A DNA stretch of 41,094 nt from a virus. Below the pieces are notes generated by a model that worked only from the letters and a program-made list of their open reading frames with translations, did no database searches and was not told the DNA's origin. Shown here in pieces: positions 3,001-35,350 of the stretch (the first letter of the stretch is position 1; each line of letters starts with the position of its first letter). Location of the stretch: the IMG/VR virus record IMGVR_UViG_3300024982_000006, positions 1-41,094 of that record. The stretch is one strand, 5' to 3'. The translations under genes and the position numbers were made by a program.

Positions 3001-5421
3001 AGGGTTGGTAGCTGGTCCTGCCGCTTGTTGTTGCGCAGTTGCTTCGACGGCTTTTGGGGCTTTCTCACTGGGTTGCTCCTGGGGTTGAGAGACTTTCGAT
3101 TTCACGTCCCAGCGGGTTGCGCTGGTCTTGACGGCTTGATGGGTGTCTTTGAGACCGTTCTGAGCGATGAACTGCTGGGCCTCCAGGCCATTGCTGAAAT
3201 AGGCGCTGCCTTTGGCAATGCGCTCGATGGCCTTGGCGCGCTTCTGATCATCTGATTGCGATTCTCTATTCGAAGGAGTACCATCAACTGATGAACTCTG
3301 ACCAGAACTCTGACGCACAGTACCCTGGCTTCGCGCGGATTCAACTGTTTTCAGGGGAGCGGCCTGCGAAGGTGGATTCACCTGTGCCTGCTGAGTCGCA
3401 CCTTGGGGTGTTTTATCTTGCGATGCCTGACCAGTCCCCGATGTTGTCTGGTCTACCCCAGCACCTTCCACGGTAGCGCTTCCGGCATTGGGCAGTCCCT
3501 CGGCGGTGGCTGCATCTCCCGCCACAACTGCTGGCGCTTCTCCCGCCTGCGCTGCTGGCGTGGTGTTGGTTCCTGGTGGTGCGTTTTGGACACGGGTAAC
3601 GTCCTTCGCGGTGAATCCTGGTCCTGCCGTGGCAGTGGTTTGTGTGCCCAGTGTGGTTGGTTGCGCGCGGCCGGCGGCTACTGGCGCTGCATCAGTTCGC
3701 TTGGGCAGTTCACCAGATTGACCCAGCACACCAGCAACAGGTCGGCTTTGCTTGGCTCCAGCTCCTGATCCATCAACTGGTCCAGGTGCCACGCTTGCCG
3801 TGCTGTCAGCCCGCCCAGCCGGTACGACTCCTGAACCAGCGGACTGAACTCCATTTTTTGGGCCATTGGCATCCTTGCGTCGTGCGACAAAGCCGTCTTG
3901 CACCTGGGCGATAGTCCAGTCCTTGCCCTCCATGTTGGCGCGCCGGGCCGCCGCCAGACGGTTCGGGTAGGGCTTGCCCAATCCATTCAGGATGTCGCCA
4001 TCCAGTGTTCCCTTGTACTGGATTCCTCCGTCTGCAACTGTCTGGTTGCTGAACAGCACCGCGCGCTTGTCCTCTGGCGACATCGCGGCTTCGGCAATCG
4101 GACCATGGGTGATAGGCTTGGTGGCGGTGTCCAGTTCTGCGGCCTGGCGGTCCTGCTCTGCCGTGGCCTGCTCGTAGGCCGCTTGGTCGGCTTCATTGGC
4201 CTGCTGGAGCTGGATTTCCTGATGCGCGCCAGTATCCACGGCAGTGACGGCTGCGGCGCTGATAGGTCCGGCGGCCGGGTCCAGGCCCATGGCCTCGGAT
4301 GGTTTGACGACAGGCTCCGGCGTTCCAGGCTGCGGTGCCAGTCCCATCATCTTGGCGCGCGCTGCCGGCTGCTGTTCTGCTGGCAGGCTGTTGATGTAGG
4401 CGTCGATCTCCGAGCGCCTTGCTACCGTGCCATCGGGAAACGACAGGTAGGGGTCTGGCGTGTTCCCGATCTGCAATGCAGGCGCAGCCGGTTCTGGCGC
4501 GGCCTCTGGAACAGGCGCAGTTTCACCGACATGCGACACCACGTTGGCGCCACCACCCATCACGGCGCCGGCCAGCATGCCTTGCGCACCCGCCTTGGCT
4601 GCGCCTTCGTCCCATGGTTTGCCCTGGGCGATGTTCTGCGCAACCTGCTCTTGGTAGGACTGCGGCAGTTCTTGCAGAACGCCCTCGTTTGCCATGCCTT
4701 CTGCCAACTTGCGCACGACACCCTTGCCCGCTGCGGCCTTGGCGGCTTCCTCGCCGACAACACCGGCCTTGCCAGAAGCCAGCATGGTTTGTACGTCGCC
4801 AATGCCCAACTTGTTGGCCAGCTTTCCGGATGCCAGCGAGATTCCACCAGTCAGGGCGCCGGATGCCGCCAGCACAGCGGATTGCTCTGGCGTCAATAGA
4901 CCGGTGGGGGATTCCTGGCGTACCTGTTCGGCGTTCTGTCCGGCCGATACCAAACCTTCTCCGGCTGCGCCGGCCGCAATGGCTCCGAGCTTGGGCGCTA
5001 CTTTCAGTAACCCGCGCGCCGCCGCGCCACCGCCGATCATGGAGGGCGCCGACTCCATCACAGATCCAGCGATGGTCGACGGGTTCCGAACCATGGCGCC
5101 AATGGTCGGCAGGAAACCATCTGCCTGGGCTACTTCCTGGTCTGCCGCCTTCTGTTCAGGAGACAGGTACTCGCCCATGATCTGTTTGGCGTCCTTGAAA
5201 CGCACGCCAGCGGATTCGGCCAGTTTCCCGGCGCGGCCTCCCGTCACCAGATCGGCAACGCCTACCGCCGCCTCTGGCACGCCCACCACGCCTTGCGCGA
5301 GCTTGATGCCCTGATCGGCAATGCGGCGGATGGCGCCGGATGGTTTTGGAGTATCGGGACCAAGAAAGCCGTCAATCTCGGACGACTGTTGACCGTCCAA
5401 GAAGTCGTTGATCTCGCTCAT
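1..5421 (-). CDS. Giant polyvalent virion protein with MutS-I-like and N6-adenine methyltransferase domains (C-terminus outside window)
   Basis: The frame is open for 1807 codons from the ATG at 5421 to the left edge, so the true protein is longer. Residues 1-380 are Ala/Gly-rich with hydrophobic stretches (about 115-270), suiting a protein that passes through the tail. Residues 560-900 are a low-complexity Pro/Ala/Gln linker. Residues 919-973 (starting KIGDFFEVIGNDAKE) resemble the MutS domain I fold, a known module of phage polyvalent proteins. A charged helical region follows (about 1080-1500). From about 1620 comes a DNA methyltransferase: FFPTPESVADEM, SAM-binding motif EPSAGWG (1644-1650) and catalytic NPPF (1765-1768), typical of N6-adenine enzymes. 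Such proteins are packaged and co-injected to protect incoming DNA. The ATG overlaps the upstream stop as ATGA. Host DNA protection is inferred. Confidence 0.85.
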   Translation of the reverse strand, partial: MSEINDFLDGQQSSEIDGFLGPDTPKPSGAIRRIADQGIKLAQGVVGVPEAAVGVADLVTGGRAGKLAESAGVRFKDAKQIMGEYLSPEQKAADQEVAQADGFLPTIGAMVRNPSTIAGSVMESAPSMIGGGAAARGLLKVAPKLGAIAAGAAGEGLVSAGQNAEQVRQESPTGLLTPEQSAVLAASGALTGGISLASGKLANKLGIGDVQTMLASGKAGVVGEEAAKAAAGKGVVRKLAEGMANEGVLQELPQSYQEQVAQNIAQGKPWDEGAAKAGAQGMLAGAVMGGGANVVSHVGETAPVPEAAPEPAAPALQIGNTPDPYLSFPDGTVARRSEIDAYINSLPAEQQPAARAKMMGLAPQPGTPEPVVKPSEAMGLDPAAGPISAAAVTAVDTGAHQEIQLQQANEADQAAYEQATAEQDRQAAELDTATKPITHGPIAEAAMSPEDKRAVLFSNQTVADGGIQYKGTLDGDILNGLGKPYPNRLAAARRANMEGKDWTIAQVQDGFVARRKDANGPKNGVQSAGSGVVPAGRADSTASVAPGPVDGSGAGAKQSRPVAGVLGQSGELPKRTDAAPVAAGRAQPTTLGTQTTATAGPGFTAKDVTRVQNAPPGTNTTPAAQAGEAPAVVAGDAATAEGLPNAGSATVEGAGVDQTTSGTGQASQDKTPQGATQQAQVNPPSQAAPLKTVESARSQGTVRQSSGQSSSVDGTPSNRESQSDDQKRAKAIERIAKGSAYFSNGLEAQQFIAQNGLKDTHQAVKTSATRWDVKSKVSQPQEQPSEKAPKAVEATAQQQAAGPATNPAKPAASDGVAAAPEAKPAAAPVAKPGLERIRAAREAKDNAIQQKRDQDRSDYFILKNKSPSGISGAASSTKADGLGDQPAEGSGTSVAKPAPEIKDADQPIQKPRKTLETVKIGDFFEVIGNDAKEVSRILGLTLTKSRGGEPMVGWPYHAHAQMVQALSEAGIDIKDAGPAHDGAQPAGTVEPADILDAETALWSRITDGTATVDEFKAGFERWVSSKADILAALAKNKKDDLLKMGGSMFAYRNKSETKPEIVEALWRDGANQYVLARSFSHGMGKNAWLDGVRNMVEKTDTEQLAQYAKDRKSAQEEAVSRVAKVAEAIKDPQTLDDFHNLIRATKSTGKTFKEARLMLTPAQRAKYDDMTATSSRAERASRKEAQQDAILRAPGEAVTASEIIQTKHTKHGHDLWQFNLEQRVSGDEFKSLVAQAKRLGGDYSSYRGNGAIPGWQFRTEDAAKAFKALIAGDTTAAKDVMQERRDSFADDRSQSATERLNEMADRLDERASASLGQERKANTEKRARQAASAEAAANAEKAMAQTMRNIAQAIADGKAKFLDRVRQKVQVEALQSYVTTAKGEELRAKYESYADQEKHRWEAPTAETADFAEFPTFTAYRSDLATLARQLLEVDGTKMLGQRLLKEADDVTDAYTKFAKENFVKVSAFSSRGGGVAAFGTKADAEAAIARSGYKGKAIAYQVKRGEHAVILSPSEAVERGIWKGDGDKRLTLHPDTGAELVEKIGKAARRGAKVSVPWQLETAHDRRKLLARMGIETPAEFRSALREFIGLQEQAATPSKVKELERAMIGRRNDGMDFFPTPESVADEMVDTAGIEPGMAVLEPSAGWGHIAERIRAAGVDPDVGEMSNDRRELLEAKGFNVVSRDFMEMSPRGFTYGDVFRAKDGTLGVMRGSGGLGSNRVGLDPLDANGQPDARTSQWHDRDSLTGIEKRAGNSGYDRILMNPPFSDGRDIQHVQHAYTLLKPGGRIVAIMGESAFTNQNKRAT

Positions 5422-7236: not shown

Positions 7237-7279
7237 ATTCTGTTCAGAGCCGGTCGGCTCGGCAAACCCTACTGGGGGT
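7237..7279 (-). promoter_or_regulatory. Late-module promoter, copy 1 of 5
   Basis: The repeated box (7263-7279, minus ACCCCCAGTAGGGTTTG) ends in a -35-like TTGCCG at 7265-7260. A 17-bp spacer and a -10-like CAGAAT at 7242-7237 follow. The box begins on the stop codon of the upstream gene. The expected start near 7229 leaves about 20 nt before the SD-preceded ATG at 7208. An inverted repeat GAGCC/GGCTC lies in the spacer. This promoter would drive the ejection protein and the polyvalent protein. Confidence 0.6.
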
Positions 7280-15118: not shown

Positions 15119-15161
15119 ATGTTCCGCAATCCACCGCATTGCGGCAAACCCTACTGGGGGT
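15119..15161 (-). promoter_or_regulatory. Late-module promoter, copy 2 of 5
   Basis: The box at 15145-15161 is identical over 17 bp to copy 1. The -35-like TTGCCG is at 15147-15142, the spacer is 17 bp and the -10-like GAACAT is at 15124-15119. The spacer contains a 7-bp inverted repeat (CCGCAAT/ATTGCGG, partly overlapping the -35). It lies directly after the stop of the 68-aa gene and would drive the tail genes downstream. The -10 match is weak (3 of 6). Confidence 0.55.
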
Positions 15162-23803: not shown

Positions 23804-23846
23804 ATCATCCGGCTACTGGCGCGCGCGGACAATCCCTACTGGGGGT
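23804..23846 (-). promoter_or_regulatory. Late-module promoter, copy 3 of 5
   Basis: The box at 23830-23846 differs by one base from copies 1 and 2. The -35-like TTGTCC is at 23832-23827, the spacer is 17 bp and the -10-like GATGAT is at 23809-23804. The predicted start near 23797 falls three bases before the first hairpin of the structured leader. It would drive scaffold, capsid and decoration genes. Confidence 0.6.
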
Positions 23847-27422: not shown

Positions 27423-28942
27423 AGTCGCCAGTCAGGTGGGGGGGGCGGGTTGTAGGCGCTCATCGAGCCTGGCGACGGAATACCAGAGACAAAGGTCATG
27501 GCCACTGCGTCACCCTTGTCAGGAGAGCGCCCAAGCGCCTCGCGTATCTCGTCCTTGTCACGGATCTGGATCGCGGCAACCTTGCCCATGCTCACGACCT
27601 TGTAGCGAACCGCACAGAGGTCTTCTGTCAACTCCGGGTCAGGAGGCAAAGAGATGGGGTCAGGATTGGTAGGGTCCAGTGCCTCGCGCATGCGCCAGTA
27701 CATCTCGGCGCGCTTGTTCTTGAAACGCAGTTGGCCAGCCTTGTCGGACAGTCCACTCGATGCAGAACCAACTACGGGCAAGACCAGCAGATTCAGGCCG
27801 ACGATGAAATCCAGCGCGCTTGATCCGATACCGATACTGTCAACGCAGACGCAGGCACCGTTGCGGATGAGTGGCACGATGAAGCCTGCTGCGGTAGGAC
27901 CATCCTTAACCACGGCTCCAGGAACTGACACCATCTCGTCGAACCAAGTCCCATGGCGTCGCGCCGCCGTGCTCTTGTCTTGTCCGCCGCGTGTCGGATC
28001 GAATCCGATCGCCGTCATCGGCCCCTTTGTGTCTTTCTTCACCCACCGCGCTTGTGCAGCTTTCACCCATTCGGTGGGTACAAGTTGCCATGCCGGGTCA
28101 CTGGCGCCGGCCTGAAAGTCACCGCGCAGCATCTGACTGCGCAGGGGCTCGGGAAGCGACTGCAGCGTCGCCTTGTAGCCGGTGGAAGCGAGAAACAGGT
28201 TGTCATCGACGTTGGACGGAATGAATGTTCTGCTCTTTGGCGTGAACCAATCCGCGCCGACCTTGACCGGATCGCCGCTTGGAACCTCCATGTCATCGCC
28301 ATTGACATCTGTGACATACCAGCGCAGTTCTCCCGGCTTGGCTGGGTTCGGATGTGTCGGATCGAGCCACGCTGCCCAAAAGCGCTTCACCCACTGACCT
28401 TCACTCGAAGTGGGGGGATTCCCGGCGCAGACCACGCGCTGGCGCTGGCTCGGGTCATCGGAGCGCAGCCAGCCTATCAGCGCGCGAAACTGGGCTTCCG
28501 TGAAGTGGGGCAGCTCGTCAAACGCCTTCAGGTCATGGGCGCGGCCCTGATACTTCATCCAGTCGTCTGGCTGGGCAACGCTGCCAAGCTCCATCACACG
28601 CCCGCCAGGAATCCTCCAGACGCCGGACTGTGAGTTGTAACCGGTGCGCGTTCCCAGAATCCGCGTCATGTCCTCCTCAAGGCCAGTCAGCTGCACCGCC
28701 TCGCGCCTGAAGATGATGGAACGCTTGTGAGCCGTCAGTGACAGTCCCAGCATCAGGCTGGACTTGCCGCCTCCAGCCGATCCGCCATAAAACAGGATGT
28801 CAGCTTGGGACTCGTAGGCCATGCGTTGCGGCCCGGGTTGAGGAACCCATACCGGAACGCTCGCCAGTAGTTTGTCAAGCTCGGCCTTGTCGGCCTGCGA
28901 CATGCGCGCGATGGTCTCCATGGCCTCAGTGGTCGTGCTCAT
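27419..28942 (-). CDS. terL: Terminase large subunit
   Basis: This 507-aa ATPase-nuclease motor packages DNA into proheads. The ATPase domain has Walker A GGSAGGGKS (53-61), Walker B ending in D141-E142 (LKAFDEL) and coupling motif CAGNPP (171-176). The RNase H-like nuclease domain has acidic residues D314 (GFDPTRGG), D367 (VDSIGIG) and D477 (KGDAVAM). The length and all key residues are intact, so it should be active. It overlaps the upstream terS by four bases and the portal downstream by four. Confidence 0.95.
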   Translation of the reverse strand: MSTTTEAMETIARMSQADKAELDKLLASVPVWVPQPGPQRMAYESQADILFYGGSAGGGKSSLMLGLSLTAHKRSIIFRREAVQLTGLEEDMTRILGTRTGYNSQSGVWRIPGGRVMELGSVAQPDDWMKYQGRAHDLKAFDELPHFTEAQFRALIGWLRSDDPSQRQRVVCAGNPPTSSEGQWVKRFWAAWLDPTHPNPAKPGELRWYVTDVNGDDMEVPSGDPVKVGADWFTPKSRTFIPSNVDDNLFLASTGYKATLQSLPEPLRSQMLRGDFQAGASDPAWQLVPTEWVKAAQARWVKKDTKGPMTAIGFDPTRGGQDKSTAARRHGTWFDEMVSVPGAVVKDGPTAAGFIVPLIRNGACVCVDSIGIGSSALDFIVGLNLLVLPVVGSASSGLSDKAGQLRFKNKRAEMYWRMREALDPTNPDPISLPPDPELTEDLCAVRYKVVSMGKVAAIQIRDKDEIREALGRSPDKGDAVAMTFVSGIPSPGSMSAYNPPPPPDWRL

Positions 28943-29640
28943 GGCAGAGGACCAACCTTGGACATTAGGTAAGCCAGCTTGACAGCCCGCTCGGCGTCCG
29001 TCATGCCGGTTGGCTTGGTCGGGTCTTCTTCGCCTCCATAGTCAATGCCAAATGCCTCGCGCTCTCCTTTGCGGACCTTTTCATCCACATCGGCCAGCTT
29101 CTTCAAGTCATCGACCAGGGCGCTGCGTCCCATTGCCTTCCTGAGTGCATCGTGGGCTCGGTCCACGCCATTGTCGTCTGGCTTGCGCACCATCTCAATG
29201 ATCTCAGCCAAGTCCACCATGTTTTCGGCTGCTTGTTCGATCTGAGCCAGCAATTTGCGCTTGACTTGCGTGATGCTATTCAGGCCCTTGCGGTGCCCAA
29301 GGATCACGTTTGTGTTGACCTCGGCAGCAGCAAGAACCGTATTGCTGACTTTCTGCTGACCCTCGCTAACTTCCTTGCTGACTAATTGCTCGATCAACTT
29401 GGCGTTCGTCGCCTGCTTGATGGCAATTGCGAGGTCTTGTGTCCACCCGTCCTTCTTTGCCTTACGGGATATGAGACCATTGTTCGCACCATGCTTAGCT
29501 TCAAGCTCGCGCAGCGTGAACTTCCCGGTTCGATAGTCTCTCTCGACAGCTTCCCAGTCAGTGCGCTTCTTCTTGCCCGCAGCGCCGCCAGCCTCTTTTG
29601 AGGCGTTCAGCACGTGGCTCTTGGATTTCGATACCGTCAT
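28939..29640 (-). CDS. terS: Terminase small subunit
   Basis: This 233-aa protein has an N-terminal helix-turn-helix region (residues 28-66: WEAVERDYRTGKFTLRELE, then KHGANNGLISRKAKKDGW). A long helical oligomerisation segment and an acidic C-terminal tail follow. It should recognise the packaging site and stimulate TerL. No SD precedes the ATG at 29640, and the predicted start from promoter copy 4 (about 29641) coincides with it, so leaderless translation is likely. Confidence 0.8.
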   Translation of the reverse strand: MTVSKSKSHVLNASKEAGGAAGKKKRTDWEAVERDYRTGKFTLRELEAKHGANNGLISRKAKKDGWTQDLAIAIKQATNAKLIEQLVSKEVSEGQQKVSNTVLAAAEVNTNVILGHRKGLNSITQVKRKLLAQIEQAAENMVDLAEIIEMVRKPDDNGVDRAHDALRKAMGRSALVDDLKKLADVDEKVRKGEREAFGIDYGGEEDPTKPTGMTDAERAVKLAYLMSKVGPLP

Positions 29641-29648
29641 GCATACCG

Positions 29649-29692
29649 ATGATGCTGACGACTGGGGTTATGGACAAACCCTAGTGGGGGGT
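29649..29692 (-). promoter_or_regulatory. Late-module promoter, copy 4 of 5
   Basis: The box at 29675-29692 reads ACCCCCCACTAGGGTTTG on the minus strand, with one extra C and ACTA in place of AGTA. The -35-like TTGTCC is at 29677-29672, the spacer is 17 bp and the -10-like CATCAT is at 29654-29649. The box overlaps the TAG stop of the HNH remnant. It would drive terS, terL, portal and the two head genes. Confidence 0.6.
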
Positions 29693-29836
29693 GCGCTCCC
29701 CGATGGGCCGCCAATCAGTAACGTCCCAATTGCCTTTGCCATGATTGCAGTCCCCGCAAAGAACTTGCAGATTGTCCATGGACAGGGCTAGGTCAGGAAA
29801 AAGCAGCGCTGAGGTCGTCTTTTGCTTCTTTGACAT
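29681..29836 (-). pseudogene. C-terminal half of an HNH endonuclease
   Basis: A 51-codon frame encodes DLALSMDNLQVLCGDCNHGK followed by GNWDVTDWR. This is the typical C-terminal half of phage HNH nucleases that lie beside terminase genes. The N-terminal zinc CxxC and the catalytic His of an HVDHIKP-type motif are absent, and the frame closes upstream with a stop. Either the gene is a degraded remnant or a short independent peptide starts at the ATG at 29836. The last codons form part of promoter copy 4. Confidence 0.6.
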
Positions 29837-30101: not shown

Positions 30102-30187
30102 AGTCCTAAAACTGCTGCGTTCCTGATGCAGCCACATCAGTCCGGTTGCCCGGCCGGTTTCCCGGTAAACGCATGAGTTTTAGGACT
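30102..30187 (-). ncRNA. Four-way-junction structured RNA
   Basis: The minus strand tiles into four helices. P1 pairs 30187-30169 with 30120-30102 (12 bp plus 5 bp, separated by a 2x2 internal loop). P2, 30165-30154, is CCGG-GAAA-CCGG. P3, 30153-30142, is CCGG-GCAA-CCGG. P4, 30140-30123, is CTGATG/CATCAG with loop TGGCTG. Both tetraloops are GNRA only on this strand. The P4 loop can pair with CAGCCA just upstream (30212-30207), a possible pseudoknot. A sigma70-like promoter places +1 at about 30187. Position at the early/late boundary suggests a cis-acting antitermination or regulatory leader, or a small RNA. Confidence 0.65.
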
Positions 30188-30194
30188 CGTGGGT

Positions 30195-30223
30195 ATTGTC
30201 TCAGTGTGGCTGCACATTGACAA
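30195..30223 (-). promoter_or_regulatory. Sigma70-like promoter ahead of the structured RNA
   Basis: The -35 is TTGTCA (30223-30218, 5 of 6), the spacer is 17 bp and the -10 is GACAAT (30200-30195, 4 of 6). The start is predicted at 30187-30188, the first base of helix P1. It may be the main late promoter, comparable in place to lambda pR'. Confidence 0.55.
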
Positions 30224-30228
30224 GCCCA

Positions 30229-30273
30229 ATCTTCGTCATGTCGCTACTTCGCATCAATCCTTAGTGGGGGGGT
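30229..30273 (-). promoter_or_regulatory. Late-module promoter-like box, copy 5 of 5 (divergent)
   Basis: The box at 30255-30273 reads ACCCCCCCACTAAGGATTG and contains the stop codon of the zinc-ribbon gene. The TTGATG at 30257-30252, 17-bp spacer and GAAGAT at 30234-30229 keep the arrangement of the other copies but match consensus poorly. It may instead be an activator site for the promoter at 30195-30223, lying roughly 70-85 bp upstream of that start. Confidence 0.45.
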
Positions 30274-31544: not shown

Positions 31545-31895
31545 TCACCGCCCGAATTGCAGCCCAGTCCCAGCAGTCGCCGCACCAACGTTCTTCGTCT
31601 CTCTCAGCGAAAGATCCAGCACATGGTCGCCGATTTCCAGCTTGACCCGGCCATTGTTCAGGTACGTCACCGACACGTGGCGGTCTACGGGTCCATCCTC
31701 GACCAGCTCCACGATGCCATTGACGGGCCGGCGCAGGATTCCATTGTCCAACATGGTCTTCAGGTGATCGTCAACGATCGACAGCTTCAATCCCGTCGTC
31801 ATGCTGATGACCTGGCGGCTGCACACCCGATTTGCATTCGTCAGATCAATGATCGCCTGTTTTATGATTACCGATGGTGATTCCGGCTTGCTCAT
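31545..31895 (-). CDS. Putative winged-helix regulator
   Basis: This 116-aa protein starts MSKPESPSVIIKQAIIDLTN. Residues 10-60 look like a winged helix (NRVCSRQVISMTTGLKLSIV, then DDHLKTMLDNGILRRPVNG). Residues 75-116 are a short domain ending LSLRETKNVGAATAGTG. It overlaps the LuxR-type HTH gene by ATGA. As one of three DNA-binding proteins in a row, it could take part in control of the late promoters. Confidence 0.6.
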   Translation of the reverse strand: MSKPESPSVIIKQAIIDLTNANRVCSRQVISMTTGLKLSIVDDHLKTMLDNGILRRPVNGIVELVEDGPVDRHVSVTYLNNGRVKLEIGDHVLDLSLRETKNVGAATAGTGLQFGR

Positions 31896-35089: not shown

Positions 35090-35350
35090 TCAGCCAACCC
35101 GAGCGCATGCCGGCGTAGGAAGCAAGCGATCAACCAGCGCGACTACATCGGCCACGGTGGTGCACTTCTCGAAGTCTTCGTCTGTGATCTCCAAATCGAA
35201 TTCATCTTCGATACCCATGCAAAGCTCGATGACGTCCAGACTGTCAGCTTTGAGGTCTGCAACGATTTGCGATTCAGGTTTCACAGCGTCATCAGAAACG
35301 CCAAGCAGCTCGCAAAAGATGCGGGTCACGGTTTCAGTGGTTGTCTTCAA
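35090..35350 (-). CDS. Phage-encoded acyl carrier protein
   Basis: This 86-aa protein has the full ACP signature: a helical N-terminus, then VADLKADSLDVIELCMGIED with S37 as the phosphopantetheine attachment site, then EFDLEITDEDFEKCTTVADV. The start is probably TTG at 35350, with GGAG eight bases upstream; a GTG at 35329 is possible. It overlaps the upstream gene by 17 bases. ACPs carry acyl chains for lipid synthesis; host holo-ACP synthase could modify this one. Why a phage keeps it is unknown. Confidence 0.85.
   Translation of the reverse strand: MKTTTETVTRIFCELLGVSDDAVKPESQIVADLKADSLDVIELCMGIEDEFDLEITDEDFEKCTTVADVVALVDRLLPTPACARVG

Follow-up and report, generated by a model that had tools for sequence, protein, structure and literature searches.

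A four-way-junction RNA element with twin GNRA hairpins behind a predicted late promoter at the early/late boundary of a phage genome

We analyzed a viral DNA of 41 094 nucleotides (IMG/VR record IMGVR_UViG_3300024982_000006, positions 1 to 41 094), the whole of which is referred to here as the window. The late genes lie on the minus strand and encode TerS (phrog_1206), TerL, a P22-like portal and the major head protein, and the early side contains genes for a Cro-like protein, a DnaB-like helicase, RusA and NinB/Orf. The phage also encodes an acyl carrier protein (35090–35350, minus strand, phrog_5934). A PHROGs scan of early ORFs revealed no N- or Q-type gene, in agreement with a preliminary description of this DNA. 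Most relatives with a TerL identity of ~70% are prophages of Comamonadaceae and neighbours. In the 56 loci where both genes were located, a gene of the 116-aa type (o116, phrog_8117) stands upstream of terS. The gap between the two is 128–300 nt in about a dozen loci and reaches up to 4136 nt, with cargo genes, in others; in the window it is 1.9 kb and contains the RNA element analyzed below, whose position between the early genes and terS is as previously described. The sole gene-like ORF between the element and terS matches HNH endonucleases in their C-terminal part only and, judged from its sequence, looks like a remnant. The genes that frame the element are as follows.

31545 to 31895, minus strand: o116, winged-helix protein (phrog_8117), candidate late activator (profile match and predicted fold)
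29681 to 29836, minus strand: 51-aa ORF with a match to the C-terminal part only of HNH endonucleases (sequence match)
28939 to 29640, minus strand: terminase small subunit gene, terS (phrog_1206, 1.8e-48)

We computed the folding energy of the minus strand from 30187 to 30102, which had been proposed to tile into four helices with few unpaired bases, and obtained this fold at –47.8 kcal/mol. Dinucleotide shuffles gave –23.3 ± 3.1 (z –8.0; 0/200 as good), and the element had the top score among 20 502 90-nt windows from the whole phage on both strands. Pair probabilities exceeded 0.99 in the predicted finished transcript. The layout consists of 12 bp, a 2×2 loop and 7 bp around three hairpins, with two single A linkers, and all three hairpin loops are tetraloops. 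Its parts are listed below.

30102 to 30187, minus strand: four-way-junction RNA element, 86 nt (fold z –8.0, top of 20 502 windows)
30176 to 30187, minus strand: outer closing stem, 5' strand AGTCCTAAAACT, 12 bp with 30113–30102 (fold)
30167 to 30173, minus strand: inner closing stem, 5' strand TGCGTTT, 7 bp with 30122–30116 (fold)
30154 to 30165, minus strand: hairpin 1, CCGG-GAAA-CCGG, GNRA loop (fold)
30142 to 30153, minus strand: hairpin 2, CCGG-GCAA-CCGG, GNRA loop (fold)
30123 to 30140, minus strand: hairpin 3, CTGATGT-GGCT-GCATCAG, 7 bp including a U-G (fold)
30102 to 30113, minus strand: outer closing stem, 3' strand AGTTTTAGGACT, then TTTTGCGTTT (fold)

The twin hairpins at 30165–30154 and 30153–30142 were exactly those given in the preliminary description, whereas its uninterrupted closing stem of 17 bp was replaced by an outer stem of 12 bp and an inner stem of 7 bp, parted by a 2×2 internal loop (CA/GC). 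The third hairpin was recovered too, with seven pairs (six plus a U-G) instead of six. The GNRA loops occur in the minus sense only, as had been observed; the plus strand also folds (–41.3), and its corresponding loops are UUUC and UUGC. We conclude that the element is a real structure, namely a minus-sense structured RNA element at the early/late boundary.

We further analyzed the promoters of the late strand. A repeat first seen at 30255 and 29675 turned out to occur five times in the window, on the late strand in every case, and it also precedes terS in related phages. In a gapless alignment of the 88 best sites, a strong A and a strong T, four apart, appeared 22–26 columns past the box CCCCCNNTAGGGTTYG. 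The late promoter consists of this box, a distance of about 21 nt and a sigma70-like –10 in which only A-11 and T-7 are conserved. In a sigma70 –10 element, no bases are more constrained than A-11 and T-7, and this assignment places the center of the box near –42, where class II activators classically bind; as far as sequence can tell, the motif is consistent with a class-II activated promoter. The promoter class and the promoter positions were computed with matrices. The first matrix was built from 13 hand-picked sites, covered the upstream 18 columns only and gave 114 matches on the late strand versus 11 on the other strand. With the –10 added (25 columns), 99 late-strand versus 0 other-strand matches were obtained in 83 clade loci (TerL >64%), and 2 versus 1 in 62 neighbouring-clade loci (TerL <60%); on the opposite strand, in the window as in the clade, every score was below 14. 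The same loci had served to train the 25-column matrix; neither this strand contrast nor the following held-out test depends on that. Among 71 held-out sites, which lie outside the seed loci and were chosen by the upstream box alone, A and T occupied the exact –11 and –7 columns in 64 (next-best offset, 10), although sites in related prophages are not independent of each other.

The five promoters of the window, together with a sigma70-like site proposed earlier, are as follows.

30229 to 30271, minus strand: late promoter P1, box CCCCCCACTAAGGATTG at 30271–30255 and –10 GAAGAT at 30234–30229 (matrix 23.6)
30195 to 30223, minus strand: previously proposed sigma70-like site, TTGTCA-17-GACAAT (chance-level match)
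29649 to 29691, minus strand: late promoter P2, before terS (ATG at 29640, near-leaderless; matrix)
23804 to 23846, minus strand: late promoter P3, ahead of the gene that precedes the major head protein gene (matrix)
15119 to 15161, minus strand: late promoter P4 (matrix)
7237 to 7279, minus strand: late promoter P5 (matrix)

P1 is the weakest of the five (23.6 versus 26.5–33.8) and carries both the promoter box and a –10 with A-11 and T-7, the features by which a promoter was assigned to the late regulon. Its predicted +1 lies at about 30222, so that the element corresponds to +36 to +121 and the stem begins ~35 nt from the start. The preliminary description had instead set +1 at the first base of the closing stem, off the site TTGTCA-17-GACAAT (30223–30195, minus strand). 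Both hexamers are present, at the proper distance of 17 nt and together with an extended –10 TG; however, a 9/12 match is at chance level (1.1 such sites expected in the region versus 2 found), and the site sits at and downstream of the predicted start of the conserved P1. A transcript that begins at 30187 off this site is therefore hardly credible.

The start codon of terS is located 7–10 nt past the –7 T of its promoter in the window and in ~30 relatives, and in 31 of the 42 terS-proximal held-out sites the ATG occupied columns 49–52, at or just past the predicted +1. By position, the terS mRNA is apparently leaderless in these phages. Farther downstream, the gene that precedes the major head protein gene has a hairpin GCCAC-GGCGANAU-GUGGC (23687–23670, minus strand) immediately ahead of its ribosome site. 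This hairpin was found in 32 clade loci in the forward direction and in 5 on the reverse strand, and across about 30 related loci its stem covaries (two-sided changes in 4/5 pairs; 100% of cells paired, 0/500 shuffles) while the loop is conserved. It looks like a translational control element.

The candidate for the activator is o116. This gene and the promoter occurred together in 47 of the 61 clade loci with enough upstream DNA and were both missing from 7, and o116 was missing from 49/49 loci of the other clade, an association much of which falls within one clade and is therefore confounded by descent. In two loci (L063 and L170), a late promoter precedes the o116 homologue's own gene, as expected of autoregulation. 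AlphaFold2 predicted a confident winged helix (mean pLDDT 92.5), and the nearest solved folds include DNA-binding proteins of the DtxR/IdeR and MarR types, with weak E-values. From these sequence and model data, o116 is likely to be the activator of the late promoters, and its co-occurrence and predicted fold make it a candidate for binding them. The arrangement resembles class II activated sigma70 phage late promoters in having a box near –42, no proper –35, and A-11 and T-7; it differs in that the terS mRNA appears leaderless. To our knowledge, neither the box CCCCCNNTAGGGTTYG nor the phrog_8117 protein has been described as such a part of a late promoter.

We then considered the RNA that would begin at P1. 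An upstream CAGCCA had been noted as a possible pairing partner of the loop of hairpin 3; the partner was confirmed, and its extent proved to be longer, at 10 nt.

30205 to 30214, minus strand: TGCAGCCACA, perfect 10-nt complement of 30136–30127 in hairpin 3 (repeat comparison)

This stretch corresponds to +9 to +18 of the predicted P1 transcript. When folding was computed by length, with equilibrium energies at each length and not kinetics, the helix between TGCAGCCACA and the hairpin-3 strand was the minimum free energy structure of the growing chain at 96–102 nt; at 108 nt the inner junction won, and the finished transcript held the four-way junction.

Such a change of pairing during chain growth could indicate a cis-acting late leader that protects or processes its own transcript or alters RNA polymerase by put-like anti-pausing or antitermination. 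The element lies at +36 to +121 of the predicted late transcript, and no terminator separates it from terS, which points in the same direction, as does the presence in the clade of another conserved, covarying leader hairpin, before the gene preceding the coat gene. However, long-range antitermination is unneeded where terS and other late blocks each start from a promoter of their own, and close relatives that lack the element have the same late promoters. Put-like antitermination, which had been raised in the preliminary description, thus loses its main argument: each clade genome contains several separate late promoters and a winged-helix candidate activator, and therefore no substitute for N or Q is needed. 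The HK022 put element is a cis-acting antitermination RNA of about 70 nt with two side-by-side stem-loops, located behind early promoters (PMC9378689). The present element is similar in that it is a highly structured phage RNA of about 70–90 nt close behind a phage promoter, with no protein partner gene seen, but its architecture is unlike that of put, since a single closing stem surrounds three hairpins and the promoter is a late one. Similarity to putL or putR was not detected, as blastn against the phage collection (11-base words, E up to 1) gave no match to lambdoid phages. On this evidence, we regard a cis-acting leader as rather unlikely. For a packaging RNA, the closeness to terS is the sole support.

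We searched for relatives of the element. The only other copy was found in a metagenome contig, IMGVR_UViG_3300004177_000006, which was 100% identical to the window in 5/5 pieces compared (up to 13.5 kb each) and hence represents the same phage. A blastn search against phages and plasmids gave no credible homologue. Pattern scans of viral contigs and of 85k genomes found nothing beyond the identical contig, apart from matches of the stem pattern in three unrelated viral contigs, which were judged to be due to chance. A covariance model found nothing convincing in ~160 terminase-related phage loci (weak matches of ≤17.3 bits, within chance) or in ~410 Burkholderiaceae genomes (matches of 20–25 bits, within chance for the number searched). 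In the window, Rfam 15 gave 0 matches at the gathering threshold; when E values up to 5 were admitted, the matches were at chance level and did not cover the element. Since no homologue of different sequence appeared in anything searched, structure and function are without evolutionary support.

Known classes of RNA were also compared. A tRNA was rejected (ARAGORN, 0 genes), as the loops are tetraloops only, there is no CCA end and the closing stem far exceeds an acceptor stem; a hammerhead was rejected because CUGAUG sits inside a hairpin, and a terminator because the U-run behind the stem is too short and the terminator scan did not report it. A CRISPR-repeat mimic was sought through spaced GTCCTAAAAC repeats, which were absent in the 301 family genomes searched. 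A coding function is unlikely: the 22-aa ORF at 30174–30106 reads PGNRPGNR across the twin hairpins and has no ribosome site and no relative. The late promoter of one locus (L135, +4735 relative to TerL) is followed at once by a 25-bp hairpin with A-run and T-run flanks (z –10.8), which contains CCCC-GCAA-GGGG and ends in CTTTTG. Its long GC stem, bordered by these runs, has the look of a two-way terminator, and we rejected the hairpin as a relative of the element, taking the similarity for coincidence.

An element private to this phage might also be a neutral or decaying self-complementary insert between o116 and terS, such as what is left of a mobile element or a damaged HNH cassette. This would suit a region that holds variable cargo in relatives (gap of 128–4136 nt), the truncated HNH ORF and the 27-nt arms, which are 81% complementary. 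It is at odds with two adjacent hairpins that both have GNRA loops in one sense only, with predicted pairs that are intact in 34/34 cases, with flanks that have no visible target-site duplication and with the lack of any copy in the ~410 Burkholderiaceae genomes. We consider such an insert improbable.

Palindromes were observed at a similar map position in another group. BPP-1 (L040, Rauchvirus) and its relatives (L087, L089, L095, L107, L112, L118, L123 and others) contain long palindromes ~0.8–1.5 kb upstream of TerL, mostly directly behind a large primase gene, in which tandem 9–11-bp repeats are arranged in mirror order around a core of roughly 60 nt; the sequence of the unit varies by phage, and the arms match. 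These palindromes are possible replication origins. The BPP-1 clade resembles the present phage in its related terminase and in a strong palindrome upstream of terS, but differs in the tandem-repeat arms of the palindromes, in their location behind a primase gene and in having neither o116 nor the late-promoter box. We rejected these inverted repeat arrays as the class of the element, and likewise rejected an HNH gene at that place in BPP-1, as bbp27 does not read as HNH. The iteron-armed palindromes, together with the nearly equal fold of the other strand (–41.3), could suggest that the element acts as DNA, that is, as a cruciform or inverted-repeat site bound near terS by a protein of replication, recombination or packaging. 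However, the palindromes share neither sequence nor iterons with the element, its GNRA loops are confined to the minus sense, and P1 points straight into it; a DNA-level function is accordingly very improbable.

The slot between o116 and terS was then compared among related loci. In a prophage of Variovorax sp. WS11 (L058), it contains a late-class promoter and a tRNA-Met (4759–4885), and the tRNA begins at 4810, with the predicted start of the promoter 2 nt ahead at 4808. This late promoter directly before a tRNA indicates that the slot can serve a structured RNA. The two cases have in common the promoter class, the slot and a four-way-junction RNA directly behind the promoter, although the present element is not a tRNA. 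In three other loci (L159, L182 and L187), promoters in this slot stand before a small protein gene.

In the window, the interval from P1 to the terS promoter P2 contains no intact gene, and the RNA is therefore the most evident product of P1. We accordingly favor, with a probability of roughly 0.45, the reading that the element is a late-expressed structured non-coding RNA that acts as a product. We infer that it is transcribed, where it starts, what activates it and how it may be processed as follows. Transcription would start near 30222 at P1, one of the five late-regulon promoters, where a phage activator, probably o116, would act at about –42 in place of a –35 box for host sigma70 polymerase. 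In the nascent RNA, TGCAGCCACA (+9 to +18) would briefly pair with the hairpin-3 strand, and completion of the inner stem would cause refolding to the four-way junction. The closing helix of 12 + 7 bp might protect the RNA or might be a processing site of the RNase III type, and the RNA would then most likely be a small RNA ligand of a phage or host protein. As there is no terminator behind the element, the RNA would run on into terS, which fits a cis-acting leader equally well.

More tentatively, the element may represent a new kind of phage non-coding RNA, with a twin-GNRA junction, an activator-controlled late promoter and co-transcriptional refolding, that acts on late phage or host processes. 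The RNA, if made, would be an unclassified addition to the few structured RNAs of phage late transcription. The late regulon itself is common to dozens of Burkholderiales-type prophages and comprises the box, the candidate activator, an apparently leaderless terS mRNA and a covarying leader hairpin. It explains how the late genes of these phages could be switched on without a recognized N or Q protein.
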